Notes under the pieces: generated by a model
Seen by the model: the letters and a program-made list of their open reading frames with translations, nothing else
The model's database searches: none
Told to the model about the DNA's origin: nothing
Translations under genes and position numbers: made by a program
Shown here: piece after piece, positions 1,829-19,159 of the stretch
Position numbering within the stretch: the stretch's first letter is position 1
Layout of the letters: every line of letters begins with the position of its first letter
Origin: Prochlorococcus sp. AG-418-D13
Lineage (GTDB): Bacteria; Cyanobacteriota; Cyanobacteriia; PCC-6307; Cyanobiaceae
NCBI GenBank assembly: GCA_003214315.1
Contig: QCLU01000002.1
Location: 124,001-188,000, forward strand
Length of the DNA: 64,000 nt
Direction: 5' to 3'

Positions 1829-2863
1829 ATGTCTTCTAATCTATCAAACGCTGAAATCCTAAATAATTTATTGGAGGGAAGGGACCTTGATGAATTAACT
1901 TCTAGATCTTTAATGCAAAGATGGCTTAATGATGAAATTTCAGATGTTGAAACAGGAGCTTTTTTGAGTGCTTTGAGAGCAAAAAGTTCTACAGGTGTCG
2001 AACTAAGTTCTATGGCTGAGGAACTCTTAAATGTTTGCGAATTGCCATTAGCAAGACCAAATTTGTATTTGGTAGATACTTGTGGAACAGGAGGTGATGG
2101 AGCTAATACATTCAATATTTCAACTGCAGTTGCATTTGTAGCTGCATCTTGTGGGGTAAAAATTGCAAAACACGGAAATAAAAGTGCTAGTGGAAAAGTT
2201 GGCTCTGCCGATGTTTTGTTGAATCTTGGTTTGAATTTAAATTGTTCATTAGAAAAAGTAATCAAAGCCGTAAGTGAAATTGGAATAACTTTTTTGTTCG
2301 CACCTGTTTGGCATAAATCTTTAATAAAACTTGCTCCATTAAGAAAGACTCTTGGAATAAGGACAGTATTTAATCAACTTGGACCATTGGTAAATCCTTT
2401 AAGACCCAATGCACAAGTTTTGGGTGTTGCTTCTGAGGATCTTTTAAAACCTATGGGAAGCGCACTTTTAGAAATGGGAATGAATAGAGCAATAGTCGTT
2501 CATGGGGCTGGTGGCCTTGATGAAGCTTCGCTTCAAGGAGAAAATAAATTAGTATTTGTTGATAATGGTGAATTACGGTTTTCAGAAATAAATATTTCAG
2601 ACTTTAACCAAAAAAATATATCTAACGAAAAGCTTGTGGTTTCTGATCCTGAGTCTAACGAGGAAATATTAAAGTCTGTATTAAATGGTTCTGGACAAAA
2701 ATCTCATATTGATGTTGTTGCCTTGAACTCTGCTTTAGTACTTTGGGCCGCAGGTATTGAGGATGATTTAAATAAAGGATTTAATAAAGCTTTATTTTCG
2801 ATAAATCAAGGAGATCCTTGGAAAAAGTTTTTACTTTTAAAAAATTATTTACATACAATTTAA
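1829..2863 (+). CDS. trpD: anthranilate phosphoribosyltransferase
   Basis: [34 protein letters not shown] motifs. Confidence 0.96.
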
Positions 2864-2874
2864 TTTAGTTCAAA

Positions 2875-4017
2875 TTGATGATTAATCCATATAAGAAAAA
2901 TGCGAAATTGGTTTTAAGTAATGGAATTGTATTCCCAGGATTCTTTTTTGGTGCTTCTGGTACAGCCATTGGTGAAATAGTTTTTAATACGGGAATGACT
3001 GGATATCAAGAAGTTATTACTGATCCAAGCTATTATGGACAAATATTAACATTCACTTATCCAGAGATTGGAAATACTGGTATTAATTTTGAAGATTCAG
3101 AATCTAATACTCATGTTAAGGGTATAATTGTTAGAAATTTTTCATCTAATAGCAGCAATTGGAGATCTAAAAAGAATTTTAATCAATGGTTAGTTGAGAA
3201 GAATATCATAGGTCTATATGGAATTGATACAAGGGCTCTTGTTAAGATTTTAAGATCTAATGGCGCGATGAATGGAGTTATTACTTCTTTAGATAAAACT
3301 GATGAAAGTTGTTTAAAGATGATTTGTGATACGCCAAATATGGAGGGATTAAATTTATCAAAAGTTGTTTCAACAAAGCAACAATATTTATGGAAAAGTC
3401 ATACGCAAACAATTTTTGATTTAAGAAAAAGATATGAAGAATCTTCTAAAAAGTTAAAAATAGTAGCAATTGATTTTGGAATTAAAAATTCAATTCTAAA
3501 TAGACTTATATCCCATGGTTGTGAAGTTTTGGTTTTACCTTCTCGATCTTCTCTAAATGATGTTCTATCTAACAAGCCGGATGGTATATTTTTCTCAAAT
3601 GGTCCAGGCGATCCTTCTTCTGTTTTTGAAGGTATAGACTTAGCAAAATCACTCATTGAATATGGTGAAATACCTATGTTTGGTATTTGCCTTGGCCATC
3701 AAATATTTGGATTAGCATTAGGTGGTTCAACTTATAAATTACCTTTTGGACATCGAGGTTTAAATCATCCTTGTGGTATAAATAATAAAATTGAGATAAC
3801 TAGTCAGAATCACGGTTTTGCTATTGATCCCAATTCTCTCTCAAAGGACATAGTTAGAATTACTCACTATAACCTTAACGATAATACTGTGGCTGGCCTA
3901 GAGGTTTATAATAAGCCTATATTTAGTGTGCAATATCATCCAGAAGCAGGACCTGGCCCACATGATTCAGATTATTTATTTAAAAAATTTGTTTCTCTAA
4001 TGTTAGAAAGATGTTGA
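2875..4017 (+). CDS. carA: carbamoyl-phosphate synthase small subunit
   Basis: GMTGYQEVITDPSY and class I glutamine amidotransferase motif FGICLGHQ, QYHPEA. Confidence 0.97.
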   Translation: MMINPYKKNAKLVLSNGIVFPGFFFGASGTAIGEIVFNTGMTGYQEVITDPSYYGQILTFTYPEIGNTGINFEDSESNTHVKGIIVRNFSSNSSNWRSKKNFNQWLVEKNIIGLYGIDTRALVKILRSNGAMNGVITSLDKTDESCLKMICDTPNMEGLNLSKVVSTKQQYLWKSHTQTIFDLRKRYEESSKKLKIVAIDFGIKNSILNRLISHGCEVLVLPSRSSLNDVLSNKPDGIFFSNGPGDPSSVFEGIDLAKSLIEYGEIPMFGICLGHQIFGLALGGSTYKLPFGHRGLNHPCGINNKIEITSQNHGFAIDPNSLSKDIVRITHYNLNDNTVAGLEVYNKPIFSVQYHPEAGPGPHDSDYLFKKFVSLMLERC

Positions 4018-4080
4018 CATGTTGTTTTCTTTTGATTTGATAATTACATTTGATATATTAATTTTTTGGAGGTTTAGATC

Positions 4081-4443
4081 ATAGAAGATTTTCAGAAGTT
4101 AACCGTTTCTTTAAGAGGAAACCTTGAGGTTAAAACAAACATTATGGTTTTTACTTTTAAAGGCCAACTTGATGCTTTCTCAGAAAAACAATTTAAGACA
4201 TATGTTACTAATAATTTAAAAAATGACTTTCCATTCGTTATTGATCTTACAAAAATAGATTTTTTAGATTCCTCGGGACTTGGAGCACTTGTTCAAACTG
4301 CAAAAGAATGCAAAAAGTCTAAACTTGGGTTCTCTGTAGTTGGCAATTCGAGAGTGGCCCAAACAATTAAACTTGTTCGTTTAGGGGATTTTCTTAACTT
4401 GAAGTCAAGCCTTGAAGATGCCTTAAATTATCTAAAAAATTGA
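4081..4443 (+). CDS. STAS-domain anti-sigma factor antagonist; probable non-AUG start (first ATG is at 4144)
   Basis: FLDSSGLGALVQTAKE STAS motif; open in-frame extension IEDFQKLTVSLRGNLEVKTNI upstream of ATG 4144, GGAGG at 4068-4072. Confidence 0.8.
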   Translation: MEDFQKLTVSLRGNLEVKTNIMVFTFKGQLDAFSEKQFKTYVTNNLKNDFPFVIDLTKIDFLDSSGLGALVQTAKECKKSKLGFSVVGNSRVAQTIKLVRLGDFLNLKSSLEDALNYLKN

Positions 4444-4838
4444 ATTATTGGATTCAAAACCTGGTTCCATATGGATCTCCCGACGATATAGGTGTTATTC
4501 AACTTGCTTGGCTTGGAGATTCGGTATGGGAGCTCCACCAAAGACTAAGGCATGTTCATTTTCCTTTAAAATCTAAAGAACTCCATCTATCTGTAGTAAA
4601 CGAAGTAAAAGCAAAATCTCAGTCAAAATCATTAAGTCAAATTGAACATTTATTAAATACAAATGAAATGGATCTAATTAGGCGTGCTAGAAATAAAACA
4701 AAGAGATATCCAAAATCTTCAGACCCCACCATATACTCTAGAGCAACTGGTTTTGAAACTCTTATTGGCTGGCTATTTTTAAAAGATCCTCAAAGATTAT
4801 CAAAACTTTTTGAATATTTAGAATTAAAAATGAATTGA
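4440..4838 (+). CDS. mrnC: Mini-ribonuclease 3 (RNase III-like catalytic domain)
   Basis: LAWLGDSVWELHQRLRH, RATGFETLIGWLFL. Confidence 0.85.
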   Translation: MNYWIQNLVPYGSPDDIGVIQLAWLGDSVWELHQRLRHVHFPLKSKELHLSVVNEVKAKSQSKSLSQIEHLLNTNEMDLIRRARNKTKRYPKSSDPTIYSRATGFETLIGWLFLKDPQRLSKLFEYLELKMN

Positions 4839-4842
4839 ATCT

Positions 4843-5847
4843 ATGAAAAACTCCTCAAATAAATTTCGCGGAAAAAATAATAAAGAGTACAAAAAAAATT
4901 CAGATTTTGGTTATTACTCAAAAAATACAAATCGTTCAGAAAAAAATGATACATTTTTGAACAATTCCGCTAAAAATAAGAAAGTTGAAAATTTAAAAAA
5001 AAATTATGAAAATAATACTTTTTCGTCTTTAAAAAGAAGAAATCCAAGATTTAAATCTAATACAGAATTTCCTAATAAAAATTCTGATATGCATCAAGAG
5101 TTTACTAATAAGAGAAATTTGGATGATTGGATATGGGGTAAACATTCGGTTTATGAGGCTCTTAGCAGTGATAGAGCTATTAATAGGATTTGGTGTACTT
5201 CGGAAATTTTTTCTTCAGACAAATTCTATATTTTGCTTAAGGATCTTAAATCAAAAGGAGTTCTTATTGAAGAAGTTTCTTGGAACAGGCTTTCGCAGTT
5301 GACATATGGCGCTTCACATCAAGGTGTCGCATTGCAGTTAGCATGCTCAAAAACAATATCCCTAGAACAATTAATCGATTTTTCTAAACACAATTGTCTA
5401 AATCCTACAATAGTCGCATTTGACGGTATAACTGATCCTCATAATGTGGGTGCCATTATAAGATCAGCTGAAGCATTTGATTGCAAGGGTGTAATTATTC
5501 CTCAGAGAAGGTCTGCAGGATTGACTGGAACAGTCGCCAAAGTAGCTGCAGGAGCCTTAGAACACCTTCATGTAAGTAGAGTTGTAAACTTAAATAGAGC
5601 ACTTGAGGAACTTAAGAAAAATGGTTTTCTTGTTGTTGGCTTATCTGGAGATGGTCAAATATCTATCTCAAATTTTCAAGAAAAAGCACCTTTGGTAGTT
5701 GTAGTTGGCTCTGAAGATAAAGGTATTTCTTTGCTTACTCAAAAAAAATGCGATTTTATATTAAGTATTCCTCTTAAAGGTAAGACTTCAAGTTTAAATG
5801 CCTCTGTGGCGGCCGCTATATCCCTATTTCATTTGACAGGTAAATAA
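4843..5847 (+). CDS. rlmB: TrmH/SpoU-family 23S rRNA 2'-O-methyltransferase with Asn/Lys-rich N-terminal extension
   Basis: DGITDPHNVGAIIRSAEAF, VVVGSEDKGIS, IPLKGKTSSLNASVAAAI. Confidence 0.92.
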   Translation: MKNSSNKFRGKNNKEYKKNSDFGYYSKNTNRSEKNDTFLNNSAKNKKVENLKKNYENNTFSSLKRRNPRFKSNTEFPNKNSDMHQEFTNKRNLDDWIWGKHSVYEALSSDRAINRIWCTSEIFSSDKFYILLKDLKSKGVLIEEVSWNRLSQLTYGASHQGVALQLACSKTISLEQLIDFSKHNCLNPTIVAFDGITDPHNVGAIIRSAEAFDCKGVIIPQRRSAGLTGTVAKVAAGALEHLHVSRVVNLNRALEELKKNGFLVVGLSGDGQISISNFQEKAPLVVVVGSEDKGISLLTQKKCDFILSIPLKGKTSSLNASVAAAISLFHLTGK

Positions 5848-14067: not shown

Positions 14068-16101
14068 ATGGTTCATTCTATACACCCAAGAACTATTGAA
14101 GAGGTTAAGGAAAAAGCAGATATTGTTGACGTCATATCTGAACATATTGTTCTTAAGAAGAAAGGCAAAGAATTTGTTGGGATTTGTCCTTTTCATGATG
14201 ATACTAAGCCATCTATGACAGTATCACCAAGTAAACAATTCTATTATTGTTTTTCTTGTGGTGCTGGTGGTAACTCTATTAAATTTTTAATGGAATTTAC
14301 ACGTGCAAATTTTTCAGATGTTGTACTTTCTCTTGCTAAGAAGAACAATATTAATGTTGAAAATCTTGAGGGTCCCCAAGTAGAAGCTTATAAAAAACAA
14401 TTATCTAGAAAGGAAGAGCTTTACAAAATATTAAGAGTCACCAAAAATTGGTTTAAGTCTCAATTAAATAATTCTCTAGGTTTTGAAGCTATGAAATATT
14501 TAACATCCAAGAGAAACTTGAGTAATAAAATTATTCATGACTTTGAACTAGGGTTTGCTCCAAATTCATGGAATGATTTATTTAACTATCTTTCCAAGGT
14601 AGAAAAATTTCCTATTAATCTAATATTGGCTTCAGGTCTTGCAATTTCTAAAGATAATTCTGATAAGATTTATGATCGTTTTAGAAATAGATTAATCGTT
14701 CCGATACATGATATGCAGGGACGTGTAGTTGCCTTTGGTGGAAGATCTCTTGATGGACAGGAACCTAAATATCTTAATTCTCCTGAATCAGAGATATTTG
14801 AAAAAGGGAAAATGTTGTTTGCATTTGAAAAAGCATCTAGCAATATCAGAAAAAGTGATAAAGCTATTATTGTTGAAGGTTACTTTGATGTAATTTCTCT
14901 TCATTCAAAAGGCATTGCTAATTCTGTAGCTTCCCTCGGTACAGCGTTAAATAAGTATCAAATTTCACAACTATGTAGATGTACAGATAATAAAAATATA
15001 ATCTTGAATTTTGATTCTGATAATGCAGGGATATTAGCTACAAAAAGGGTAATAAAAGAAGTCGAAAGCTTATCCCTCCATGATCAAATTAACCTTAAGA
15101 TACTTCAACTTAATGATTTTAAAGATCCTGACGAGTTTTTGAATAGTCATACCCCTGAAGATTATTTTAATTTAATTGATAATTCATCCTTTTGGATTGA
15201 TTGGGAGATTGATCAGATCTTTAAAGATAAAGATTTAAGCAAGTCTGAAAACTTCCAGAGTGTTATTTCTTTATTGGTAAAATTGTTGAGCAAATTACCT
15301 CAATCATCTACAAGAACCCATTACTTGCAAAAAGTTTCCGAACGATTGAGTAAGGGACAAGCAAGGTTAGCGATACAGTTTGAACAAGATTTAAGAAATC
15401 AAGTTAAAGGATTTCGTTGGCATGGTAGATCAAAAAAATTTGAACAACCCAATGAAATTTCTCGTCGTGAGAAAAATGAATCGGAAATAATTTTTTATTA
15501 TTTGCATTGTCCTGATCTTCGTCTTTTCATTCGCGATGAATTTCTTAAAAGAGAAATTAATGTTTTTAACACTAAATATATTCAAAATTTGTGGGAAATT
15601 ATTTCAAAAATTGAACAAACTAATTTGGGTTTAAATTATTTAAATGATTTAAAACAATCAAATAGTCAAATTCTACAAAAAGATTTTACTGCTATTAACT
15701 TAATTTCACTTCTGGCTGACTACTTAGCTATTAATAATCCTGATTCATCAAATAAAATAAATAATTTTGTTAACCCAAATGAATTGTTTTTAACATTGCT
15801 TAGTAACCCTAAAGATAATTTACTTGGAACTTTATCACTTCTTGAGAAATATAATTCTTTAAAAAGATGTAGACACTTGATCGAATCTTGGGGATCTCAA
15901 AGATTAAAAACTTTAGAAAACTGTATATCTATCTTGATTGACAATCCCTCTTCAGTTTCATCAGATACTAATAAAGAGATAGATGATCTTTTTAAGGATT
16001 TAAACTCAGATGCTATTAAATTTCAGGAATTATATTATCTAGAAAGACAACATATGAATTTTTTAGATAAACAACGCTGTGGCAATTTTATTGCTAGTTA
16101 A
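14068..16101 (+). CDS. dnaG: DNA primase
   Basis: CPFHDDTKPSMTVSPSKQFYYCFSCGAGG zinc finger; Toprim VEGYFDVI. Confidence 0.97.
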   Translation: MVHSIHPRTIEEVKEKADIVDVISEHIVLKKKGKEFVGICPFHDDTKPSMTVSPSKQFYYCFSCGAGGNSIKFLMEFTRANFSDVVLSLAKKNNINVENLEGPQVEAYKKQLSRKEELYKILRVTKNWFKSQLNNSLGFEAMKYLTSKRNLSNKIIHDFELGFAPNSWNDLFNYLSKVEKFPINLILASGLAISKDNSDKIYDRFRNRLIVPIHDMQGRVVAFGGRSLDGQEPKYLNSPESEIFEKGKMLFAFEKASSNIRKSDKAIIVEGYFDVISLHSKGIANSVASLGTALNKYQISQLCRCTDNKNIILNFDSDNAGILATKRVIKEVESLSLHDQINLKILQLNDFKDPDEFLNSHTPEDYFNLIDNSSFWIDWEIDQIFKDKDLSKSENFQSVISLLVKLLSKLPQSSTRTHYLQKVSERLSKGQARLAIQFEQDLRNQVKGFRWHGRSKKFEQPNEISRREKNESEIIFYYLHCPDLRLFIRDEFLKREINVFNTKYIQNLWEIISKIEQTNLGLNYLNDLKQSNSQILQKDFTAINLISLLADYLAINNPDSSNKINNFVNPNELFLTLLSNPKDNLLGTLSLLEKYNSLKRCRHLIESWGSQRLKTLENCISILIDNPSSVSSDTNKEIDDLFKDLNSDAIKFQELYYLERQHMNFLDKQRCGNFIAS

Positions 16102-16117
16102 CATATTTTATTTGAAT

Positions 16118-16585
16118 TTATAGACAGTATTTTTTAATCATATTTTTTACCTTTTTAGGCTTGTCTTCAAGAACATAAGCCTCTACTTCTTTTGCATAAG
16201 TTCCAGAAAAATTTGAAGTAGAGAACTCTAACGATCTCTTCTTACTTTGATGTAATTTACCTTCTAAATCTTTTATGTCCCCTACGGTCTTATTGTTATT
16301 ACATTTTTGTATAGCATGAGTAGCTTCATGTCTTAATGCTTTTCTTACTGCCAATTCTGTTTTGAAGTTATCTTTGTTTGGTCGCTGCTTTTCATTTCTA
16401 TAATTTGTTTTCCTTTTCGCATTTTCAGTACATATTATTATTTTATTTTCTACAAAATTATGTAGTCCTTTTATTTCTTTATTTAAGAGACATTCAATTT
16501 TATTTTCTTCAACTTTATATTTTGCTTTTATTAATAAGTCAAGAATCTCTTTATCTAATTTGCTTAAAAATATAATAAATTCCAT
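16118..16585 (-). CDS. uncharacterised protein with HExxH zinc-metallopeptidase-like motif
   Basis: ALRHEATHAIQKCN (HEATH) with downstream EVEAYVLEDKP candidate third ligand; follows umuC by 7 bp. Confidence 0.7.
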   Translation of the reverse strand: MEFIIFLSKLDKEILDLLIKAKYKVEENKIECLLNKEIKGLHNFVENKIIICTENAKRKTNYRNEKQRPNKDNFKTELAVRKALRHEATHAIQKCNNNKTVGDIKDLEGKLHQSKKRSLEFSTSNFSGTYAKEVEAYVLEDKPKKVKNMIKKYCL

Positions 16586-16592
16586 ATTATTT

Positions 16593-17879
16593 TTACTTTA
16601 CTATAGTTGGAATCTGGTCTATATCAGTTGTAGATGAGCGACTTAAGAAATTCTTATTCATCGCCCAACTTTTTGGCGTTTTTGTAATAGCCCATGTAAT
16701 TGCATTGTTATTAAATCTTTTATTTAATAAATCAATAGTTTTCATAAGATTTGCTGATTTTTTTAGGTCTTTCTGAGATTTGTAATTGATAACTGATTGC
16801 TGTAAATATTCGCTATTAGTTAAATCCTGCATTAAAACACCAGCTTTTGAAAATTTATATTCGGGATTATAAATTTCTTTAGATAATTCAACTACTATTT
16901 TTAAAATGCTGTTTGTATCGTCTGTTGCATTTGTAAGCTTTCTATGAGCACTTCTTTGATAATTTTGACTTGAATATTTACTGGTTCTGGCAAATACTCT
17001 AATATCAGATGATTGCAAATTCTGACTTCTCATTTTTTCAGATGCTTTTATTGCGTGAGTCGCCAGCGCTTGAGTTAAGTCTTCTAATTTTGTGACAGGA
17101 GTACTAAAACTCCTGCTTACCTGGATTTCTTTTTTTGATTTCTTGTTTTTTTCTATAGGCAGACATTTATAACCTTTCAGTTCTAATTGCAGTCTTTTCC
17201 CTACGATGCCTAATTTCTTAATGATTTCATTTTCTCCCATATCTCTTAGTTCTCTCGCATTTTTAATACCTTTACTTTGCAACCAATTAGAGGTTTGTTT
17301 CCCGACTCCCCATATCTTATCTATACTAATTCTTTTCAAATAATTATTCTCATTTTCGGTTCTAGCTAAATCAAATATTCCAGCTGAATAATCAATATTT
17401 TTAGCTAGTTTATTAGCAATTTTTGCTCTTACTTTATTTTCTCCTATTCCTACTGTTATGGTAATTCCTAGATTCTGATATATTAATGATCTTATGCTTC
17501 TTGCCCAGGAATATAGATTTTCATCATTAGGTCTAGAAATCGAGACGAATGCTTCGTCAATAGAATAAATTTCTATCTGTTCACAGTAGTTTTTCAGTAA
17601 ATTCATTAGTCTTCTGCTCATATCCCCATAAAGCGAGTAGTTTGAGCTTAAGACTGCTACATCTAATTTATTTAGTCTTTCTTTGACCTTAAAATACGGA
17701 GTTCCCATTTTAATTTTTAAAGCTCGCGCTTCAGGGCTTCTTGCAATGATACATCCGTCATTATTAGATAAAATTACTACTGGTTTATTTCTCAAATGAG
17801 GATTAATATTTTGTTCACATGACGCGTAAAAATTATTGGCATCTATAAGAGCTATTGCATCAATATTTGAAATTCTCAT
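16593..17879 (-). CDS. umuC: DNA polymerase V catalytic subunit (Y-family)
   Basis: LIDANNFYASCEQ, YSIDEAFVSI, NNDGCIIARS. Confidence 0.96.
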   Translation of the reverse strand: MRISNIDAIALIDANNFYASCEQNINPHLRNKPVVILSNNDGCIIARSPEARALKIKMGTPYFKVKERLNKLDVAVLSSNYSLYGDMSRRLMNLLKNYCEQIEIYSIDEAFVSISRPNDENLYSWARSIRSLIYQNLGITITVGIGENKVRAKIANKLAKNIDYSAGIFDLARTENENNYLKRISIDKIWGVGKQTSNWLQSKGIKNARELRDMGENEIIKKLGIVGKRLQLELKGYKCLPIEKNKKSKKEIQVSRSFSTPVTKLEDLTQALATHAIKASEKMRSQNLQSSDIRVFARTSKYSSQNYQRSAHRKLTNATDDTNSILKIVVELSKEIYNPEYKFSKAGVLMQDLTNSEYLQQSVINYKSQKDLKKSANLMKTIDLLNKRFNNNAITWAITKTPKSWAMNKNFLSRSSTTDIDQIPTIVK

Positions 17880-18292
17880 AAATAGCTATGTATTGAATAA
17901 ATAACAACTCCCCATATCTGTACATCAATATGGTTTTTAAATCTAAAATCAGGATAATTATGATTTTCTGCTTTTAAATATAATTCATTATTTTTTATAG
18001 ATAATCTTTTTATTGTAAATTCTCCGTCTATCATTGCAATGATGATATTCCCTGGCCTGGCTGTTAAGCTCTTGTCTACTATTATTAAATCTTTATCTTT
18101 AATTCCTGCATTTATCATTGAGTCACCTTTAACTCTAAGAAAAAAAGTGCTAAACGGATTAGATATTAAATGTTCGTTTAAATCAATATTTTCTTCTGTA
18201 TAGTCATCTGCAGGAGAAGGAAACCCTGCTGATACCGAATCAGTTAATAAGGGGATTTTAAATTTTTTAGTAGTTGAATCAAAAGAATCCAA
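17876..18292 (-). CDS. umuD: UmuD/LexA-type autoprotease (TTG start)
   Basis: Cleavage-site-like AGFPSPADDY; catalytic Ser in RVKGDSMINAGI, Lys in GEFTIKRL. Confidence 0.95.
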   Translation of the reverse strand: MDSFDSTTKKFKIPLLTDSVSAGFPSPADDYTEENIDLNEHLISNPFSTFFLRVKGDSMINAGIKDKDLIIVDKSLTARPGNIIIAMIDGEFTIKRLSIKNNELYLKAENHNYPDFRFKNHIDVQIWGVVIYSIHSYL

Positions 18293-18302
18293 AGTTAAAT
18301 TG

Positions 18303-18320
18303 ATAGTATATATGTACTAT
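18303..18320. promoter_or_regulatory. putative LexA/SOS box upstream of umuDC
   Basis: ATAGTATATATGTACTAT, 18-bp dyad with one mismatched pair; core AGTATATATGTACT (18305-18318) is one mismatch from RGTACNNNDGTWCB; 12 nt lie between the 14-nt core and the umuD TTG. Confidence 0.65.
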
Positions 18321-18826: not shown

Positions 18827-19159
18827 TTATTCATCAAGAAGATAATTAAATTCATCATATAGTTCCTCTTCGGTTGTTAATTTCTTGGAAAAATTATCTG
18901 TTTTAGAATTCATATTAATTTGATTAATCTCACTTTCTCTTAGTGAATTATTAACGTTAGAAGTCTCCTCTAAAGATTCTGAACTATCAATTAACGAATA
19001 AAAAATTTTATTGGGATCTTCTGAATTAAGTGGATTGGTGATTAAATTATCATTATTAGTTATATTTGTGTAATTTTTTATATTTTTGCTTTCGTTATTT
19101 AAATTTTCCTTTTTTTTAAATTTATTGAGTTTATCTAAATTTTTTTTTGATAAGCTCAT
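18827..19159 (-). CDS. low-complexity Asn/Ser/Glu-rich hypothetical protein
   Basis: 110-aa ORF, predicted disordered, acidic C-terminus TTEEELYDEFNYLLDE. Confidence 0.6.
   Translation of the reverse strand: MSLSKKNLDKLNKFKKKENLNNESKNIKNYTNITNNDNLITNPLNSEDPNKIFYSLIDSSESLEETSNVNNSLRESEINQINMNSKTDNFSKKLTTEEELYDEFNYLLDE

Follow-up and report, generated by a model that had tools for sequence, protein, structure and literature searches.

The 155-aa ORF at positions 16118..16585 (minus strand) of the window, by which is meant the entire 64,000-nt stretch of Prochlorococcus DNA analyzed here, was found, on the basis of the ORF list, same-genus homologues and AlphaFold modeling, to be a zincin-like gene lying third after umuD and umuC. 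It is best described as belonging to a new cyanobacterial and cyanophage zincin family, and the operon context in which it occurs is also new. The encoded protein is likely to be an active zinc peptidase which is co-expressed with pol V under LexA, and the best explanation overall, to which a probability of approximately 0.4 is given, is that this cytosolic enzyme is co-expressed in the SOS response and cleaves a protein that is attached to the sliding clamp or replisome. Zinc binding, proteolysis, co-transcription and induction are all properties which we infer from these comparisons.

The ORF has an ATG start and is separated by 7 nt from the umuC gene on the same strand, confirming the position reported in the first-pass annotation of this DNA, and it is the only one of the 103 ORFs of at least 60 aa in the window to encode an HExxH motif. 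The umuC gene (16593..17879, minus strand) encodes the Y-family polymerase subunit of pol V (Pfam IMS, 1.2e-39; IMS_C, 2.7e-18; DUF4113) and overlaps by 4 nt with umuD (17876..18292, minus strand), which has a TTG start and matches Peptidase_S24 (5.2e-34) and a UmuD-like PHROG (6.8e-50). The translated UmuD retains what we take, by comparison with E. coli UmuD, to be the self-cleavage Ala-Gly site, Ser and Lys. On the other side of the 155-aa ORF, the operon is bounded by the convergent primase gene dnaG (14068..16101, plus strand; ORF list). A LexA-type box, AGTATATATGTACT (18305..18318), is located 13 nt before the umuD start and has one mismatch to AGTACN4GTACT, being the only site in the window with one mismatch or fewer. 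Such a box was detected upstream of umuD in 60 of 68 loci, compared with 0.5% of shuffled sequences. With umuD and umuC adjacent and the box in place, the locus was classed as a umuDC operon with predicted LexA control; a scan across it found no terminator-like site, and the sequence leads us to expect co-transcription of the 155-aa ORF with umuDC. The gene order umuD-umuC, the box and the UmuD self-cleavage residues are shared with the bacterial umuDC operon (pol V). However, that of Prochlorococcus has a third, metallopeptidase-like gene past umuC.

Predicted LexA regulons of several Prochlorococcus strains include umuCD (PMC3091678), umuC is mitomycin C-inducible in two marine Synechococcus (PMC3744912), and umuC expression is reported to remain high under UV (PMC2921402). 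The third gene is not named in the passages searched in the studies of MED4 and PCC9511. As had been stated at the outset, no described function and no publication on this gene were found in the literature. Near the operon, between rlmH and ksgA, the window also encodes a small protein of unknown function (18827-19159) which is conserved in Prochlorococcus and in Synechococcus-type genomes.

A homologue of the 155-aa ORF was identified in 112 of 151 same-genus genomes, and in 45 of the 51 nearly complete ones. Twenty same-genus genomes without the ORF are also without umuC. Ten of these were tested for dnaG, with nine lacking it and one having it cut at a contig end, and a reading of the co-loss as functional coupling was rejected because the region is evidently missing from those assemblies; the absences of the ORF look like assembly gaps. 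When 84,980 species of bacteria and archaea were scanned, 218 relatives were found, and the best 80 are all from Prochlorococcus. Among these 80 loci the gene lies directly after umuC on the same strand in 72, in agreement with the linkage to umuDC for which the first-pass annotation had proposed a survey, and dnaG is convergent in 73; of the others, six are unlinked although their flanks are complete, and two are at contig ends. Even highly diverged Prochlorococcus genera retain the umuD-umuC-ORF order. Sampled larger genomes of the Synechococcus/Cyanobium type possess umuDC with no linked copy. The unlinked copies have no LexA-type box and adjoin rpl20/thiG, a malate:quinone-oxidoreductase-like gene, a class II ribonucleotide reductase gene and others (names which, the reductase excepted, were assigned by reading the sequences). 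The copy next to the reductase gene (2515-5462 of its locus) begins ~150 nt after it, which is another DNA-synthesis neighbor.

Relatives were also found in the Kyanoviridae phages DSL-LC02, S-SRM01 and SynMITS9220M01, within the region of the sliding clamp and clamp loader genes, and in IMG/VR 326 contigs encode them. Unexpectedly, the homologue is located immediately after gp45, the T4-type sliding clamp gene, in 112 of the 116 viral contigs examined (a set gathered with a few peptide patterns, near copies included, and holding 64 distinct sequences). In nearly all such loci the stop codon of gp45 overlaps the start codon of the homologue by 4 nt or 1 nt, and gp44 (clamp loader) is the next recognized gene in 100 of the 116. 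For examples, Pfam matches confirmed the identities of both genes (gp45-slide_C, 8e-11; Gp44_lid, 5e-18). No umuDC was seen in the phage clamp-operon stretches that were read. The DSL-LC02 homologue (4001-4411 of its locus), which encodes a 136-aa protein with HExxH, is annotated as a serine hydroxymethyltransferase, a name which its sequence does not support. In SynMITS9220M01 the adjacent "DenV" repair gene (3248-3847 of the locus) has its match to 2OG-Fe(II) oxygenase (1.9e-4) rather than to any DenV family, so that the annotation is probably wrong, and for this reason it was not used as evidence.

The HExxH motif (HEATH, residues 86-90; 16316..16330, minus strand) was compared across 185 homologues, comprising 80 from Prochlorococcus, 64 from phages and 41 others. 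His86, Glu87, His90 and Cys95 are identical in all 80, all 64 and all 41, respectively. This invariance, together with a dN/dS of ~0.1-0.2 against close relatives, indicates that the motif is not a chance occurrence. The segment EVEAYVLEDKP, previously suggested to supply a third zinc ligand about 50 residues further on, corresponds to residues 133-143 and does contain a conserved acidic residue on a predicted helix, with a distance from His90 to Glu133 of 43 residues. Residue 133 (16187..16189, minus strand; helix 130-139) is Glu in 183 of the 185 homologues and Asp in two, and is probably the third ligand. All three Glu of the segment are conserved, but residue 133 appears a better candidate than Glu135, which varies between Glu and Gln, or Glu140, which does so in secreted forms. 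Two cysteine pairs are also suggested by paired absences in the alignment. Cys32 (16490..16492) and Cys52 (16430-16432) are jointly missing in ~11 secreted relatives, with Cys52 alone missing in one relative, and are probably partners; Cys95 (16301..16303) and Cys154 (16124-16126), all on the minus strand, are jointly missing in the form from myovirus ACG-2014f and are probably partners too. These pairs may form disulfides, though with less certainty in a cytosolic protein.

AlphaFold predicted a confident small fold for the host protein (pLDDT 92.3) and was also confident for the phage form (pLDDT 96.3). The models have two N-terminal helices, a small three-strand sheet, the HExxH helix (74-95 in the host form) and C-terminal helices, one of which bears Glu133. 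The fold comparison proposed in the first-pass annotation was borne out as to a confident model with HExxH on a helix and not as to a match among solved structures: Foldseek gave no significant match in the PDB for either the host or the phage model, and sequence searches of solved structures had no credible match. The top Foldseek rows were the catalytic part of anthrax lethal factor (E 0.45-1.4, probability at most 0.25) and were discarded as too weak. They may at most reflect a possible zincin-like core and would be uninformative on toxicity. Among predicted viral structures, the matches were to other cyanophage proteins of unknown function (TM 0.62-0.71).

Many cyanobacteria encode more distant relatives, frequently more than two in one genome, which are larger and have what looks like a signal peptide or membrane anchor. 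The forms in podoviruses P60 and S-CBP42 and in myovirus ACG-2014f also carry signal peptides or anchors, and the family therefore has a secreted and a cytosolic branch, with linkage to umuDC or gp45 limited to the latter. The early-gene position in P60 and S-CBP42 was considered as a wider replication link and rejected, as both of these forms carry signal peptides. In the tree, the cytosolic forms of Prochlorococcus make up one clade (SH-aLRT 95), with the unlinked copies near its base and the phage forms adjoining; a few Synechococcus-type copies are placed among the phage forms, an arrangement compatible with transfer in either direction. This topology would suit a general protease that was gained by exchange with cyanophages and became inserted between umuC and dnaG early in the ancestry of Prochlorococcus, having no special work in DNA damage. 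The existence of secreted paralogues and of six unlinked copies beside unrelated genes, without LexA-type boxes, is consistent with such an origin. The conservation of the umuD-umuC-ORF order over such diverged genera argues against it, however, as does the steady replication neighbor that the phage copies have of their own, and we consider it a somewhat unlikely account.

As regards known families, the 155-aa ORF has no credible match in Pfam or NCBIfam, and a PADLOC search also gave no match. It clearly matches phrog_16003 (E 1.5e-10), as do all 98 aligned members (best 1.7e-17); this is a phage family of which nothing is known as to function and to which the host umuC-linked members are newly added here. 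The weak Pfam matches obtained repeatedly, to M76, WLM and SprT-like, are all to HExxH families and were counted in favor of a zincin peptidase. Of the families first suggested for this gene, M76 (Atp23, PF09768) was indeed the nearest in Pfam, although below the cut-off, while M48 had no profile match for the 155-aa ORF or for 14 diverse members, and ImmA/IrrE (M78) had none for the ORF at E<=1 or for the 14 members at E<=10. Weak matches to M76 were the most frequent (four of the 14 members, best 9e-4; 14 of the 98, best 1.1e-3). Searched over 17 genomes, the M76 profile found seven places, five of which are family members, including one umuC-linked gene, all below the cut-off. The best score for PF09768 was 22.3 bits against a gathering score of 25.2, and membership of M76 is not claimed because every match falls short in this way. 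Common to both families are HExxH, a Cys five residues past the second His, and a distal segment with Glu; however, the present family is shorter, is bacterial and phage-borne, and lies beside umuDC or gp45. DUF6782 (PF20573), a putative metallopeptidase family, is weakly matched by the secreted relatives (best 6.7e-5) but below the cut-off, and the umuC-linked form has no match to it.

SprT-like (PF10263) and WLM/Wss1 (PF08325) proteins share HExxH and a DNA-damage setting with the family, and a Wss1- or SprT-like protease for DNA-protein crosslinks, removing adducts from the path of pol V, would be in keeping with the co-expression with a translesion polymerase that the operon predicts. The matches are weak, being found in eight of 98 homologues for WLM (best 4e-4) and three of 98 for SprT-like (best 0.046, under the gathering score), and the 155-aa ORF itself has no match to either profile. 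Identity with SprT was excluded because the same Prochlorococcus genome encodes a genuine SprT elsewhere (E 7.6e-26). A crosslink-clearing role is also at odds with a third ligand which appears to be Glu and with a model of the 155-aa protein which has no visible DNA-binding extension, and such a role is improbable.

The first-pass annotation had instead proposed a protease acting on UmuD, UmuC or another SOS protein, and a function in the shut-off or maturation of the SOS response, with UmuD, UmuC or LexA as substrate, would be in line with membership of the umuDC operon in Prochlorococcus and with the LexA-type box. The phage copies speak against this, since they follow the clamp gene, with the clamp loader downstream, in a replication operon where no umuDC was seen, and UmuD or UmuC fit poorly as substrates for that reason. 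Several incomplete genomes also hold the gene with umuC undetected, and UmuD, with its own self-cleavage residues, needs no helper protease. This proposal did not hold up well and is improbable. Yeast Atp23, which belongs to the nearest named family, additionally acts as a chaperone independently of its protease activity, but a metal-binding chaperone or scaffold would tolerate loss of the catalytic Glu87, which is never lost in the 185 homologues, making this reading very improbable.

The explanation preferred here is that the protein is a small zinc metallopeptidase located in the cytosol and belonging to an as yet unnamed zincin family, in which HExxH on one helix and Glu133 on a second would bind the metal and two cysteine pairs may be present. 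In Prochlorococcus the protein would be made along with UmuD and UmuC upon inactivation of LexA. The substrate of the cytosolic branch would most likely be a protein attached to the sliding clamp or to a stalled replisome, and its cleavage may help polymerase exchange or remove a blocking protein. A substrate at the clamp or fork was proposed because of the double linkage, to pol V in the host, which itself binds the beta clamp (PMC3716654), and to the clamp gene in phages; it is the best-supported guess. Against this explanation, no solved structure matches significantly, the linkage in Prochlorococcus may be simple inheritance, the fold has other uses too, as is evident from the secreted relatives and the unlinked copies, and the phage and host settings have replication in common only broadly. 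The fuller proposal, that this is a replisome-linked metalloprotease family of host SOS and phage replication operons which controls polymerase access by cleaving a clamp- or fork-bound protein, is rather unlikely in that complete form.

Taken together, the phage and host linkages hint at an unknown protease acting at the replication machinery. Prochlorococcus, a dominant phototroph of the ocean, lives under strong light and has a streamlined genome, in which the gene stays with pol V at nearly every locus that was read. The 155-aa host protein and its 136-aa phage counterpart offer a compact, testable system. If the enzyme is active, host and phage alike would seem to regulate events at the replication fork by proteolysis, and the fuller proposal, if true, would give bacterial translesion synthesis a level of proteolytic control that has not been described and that phages exploit as well when they replicate.
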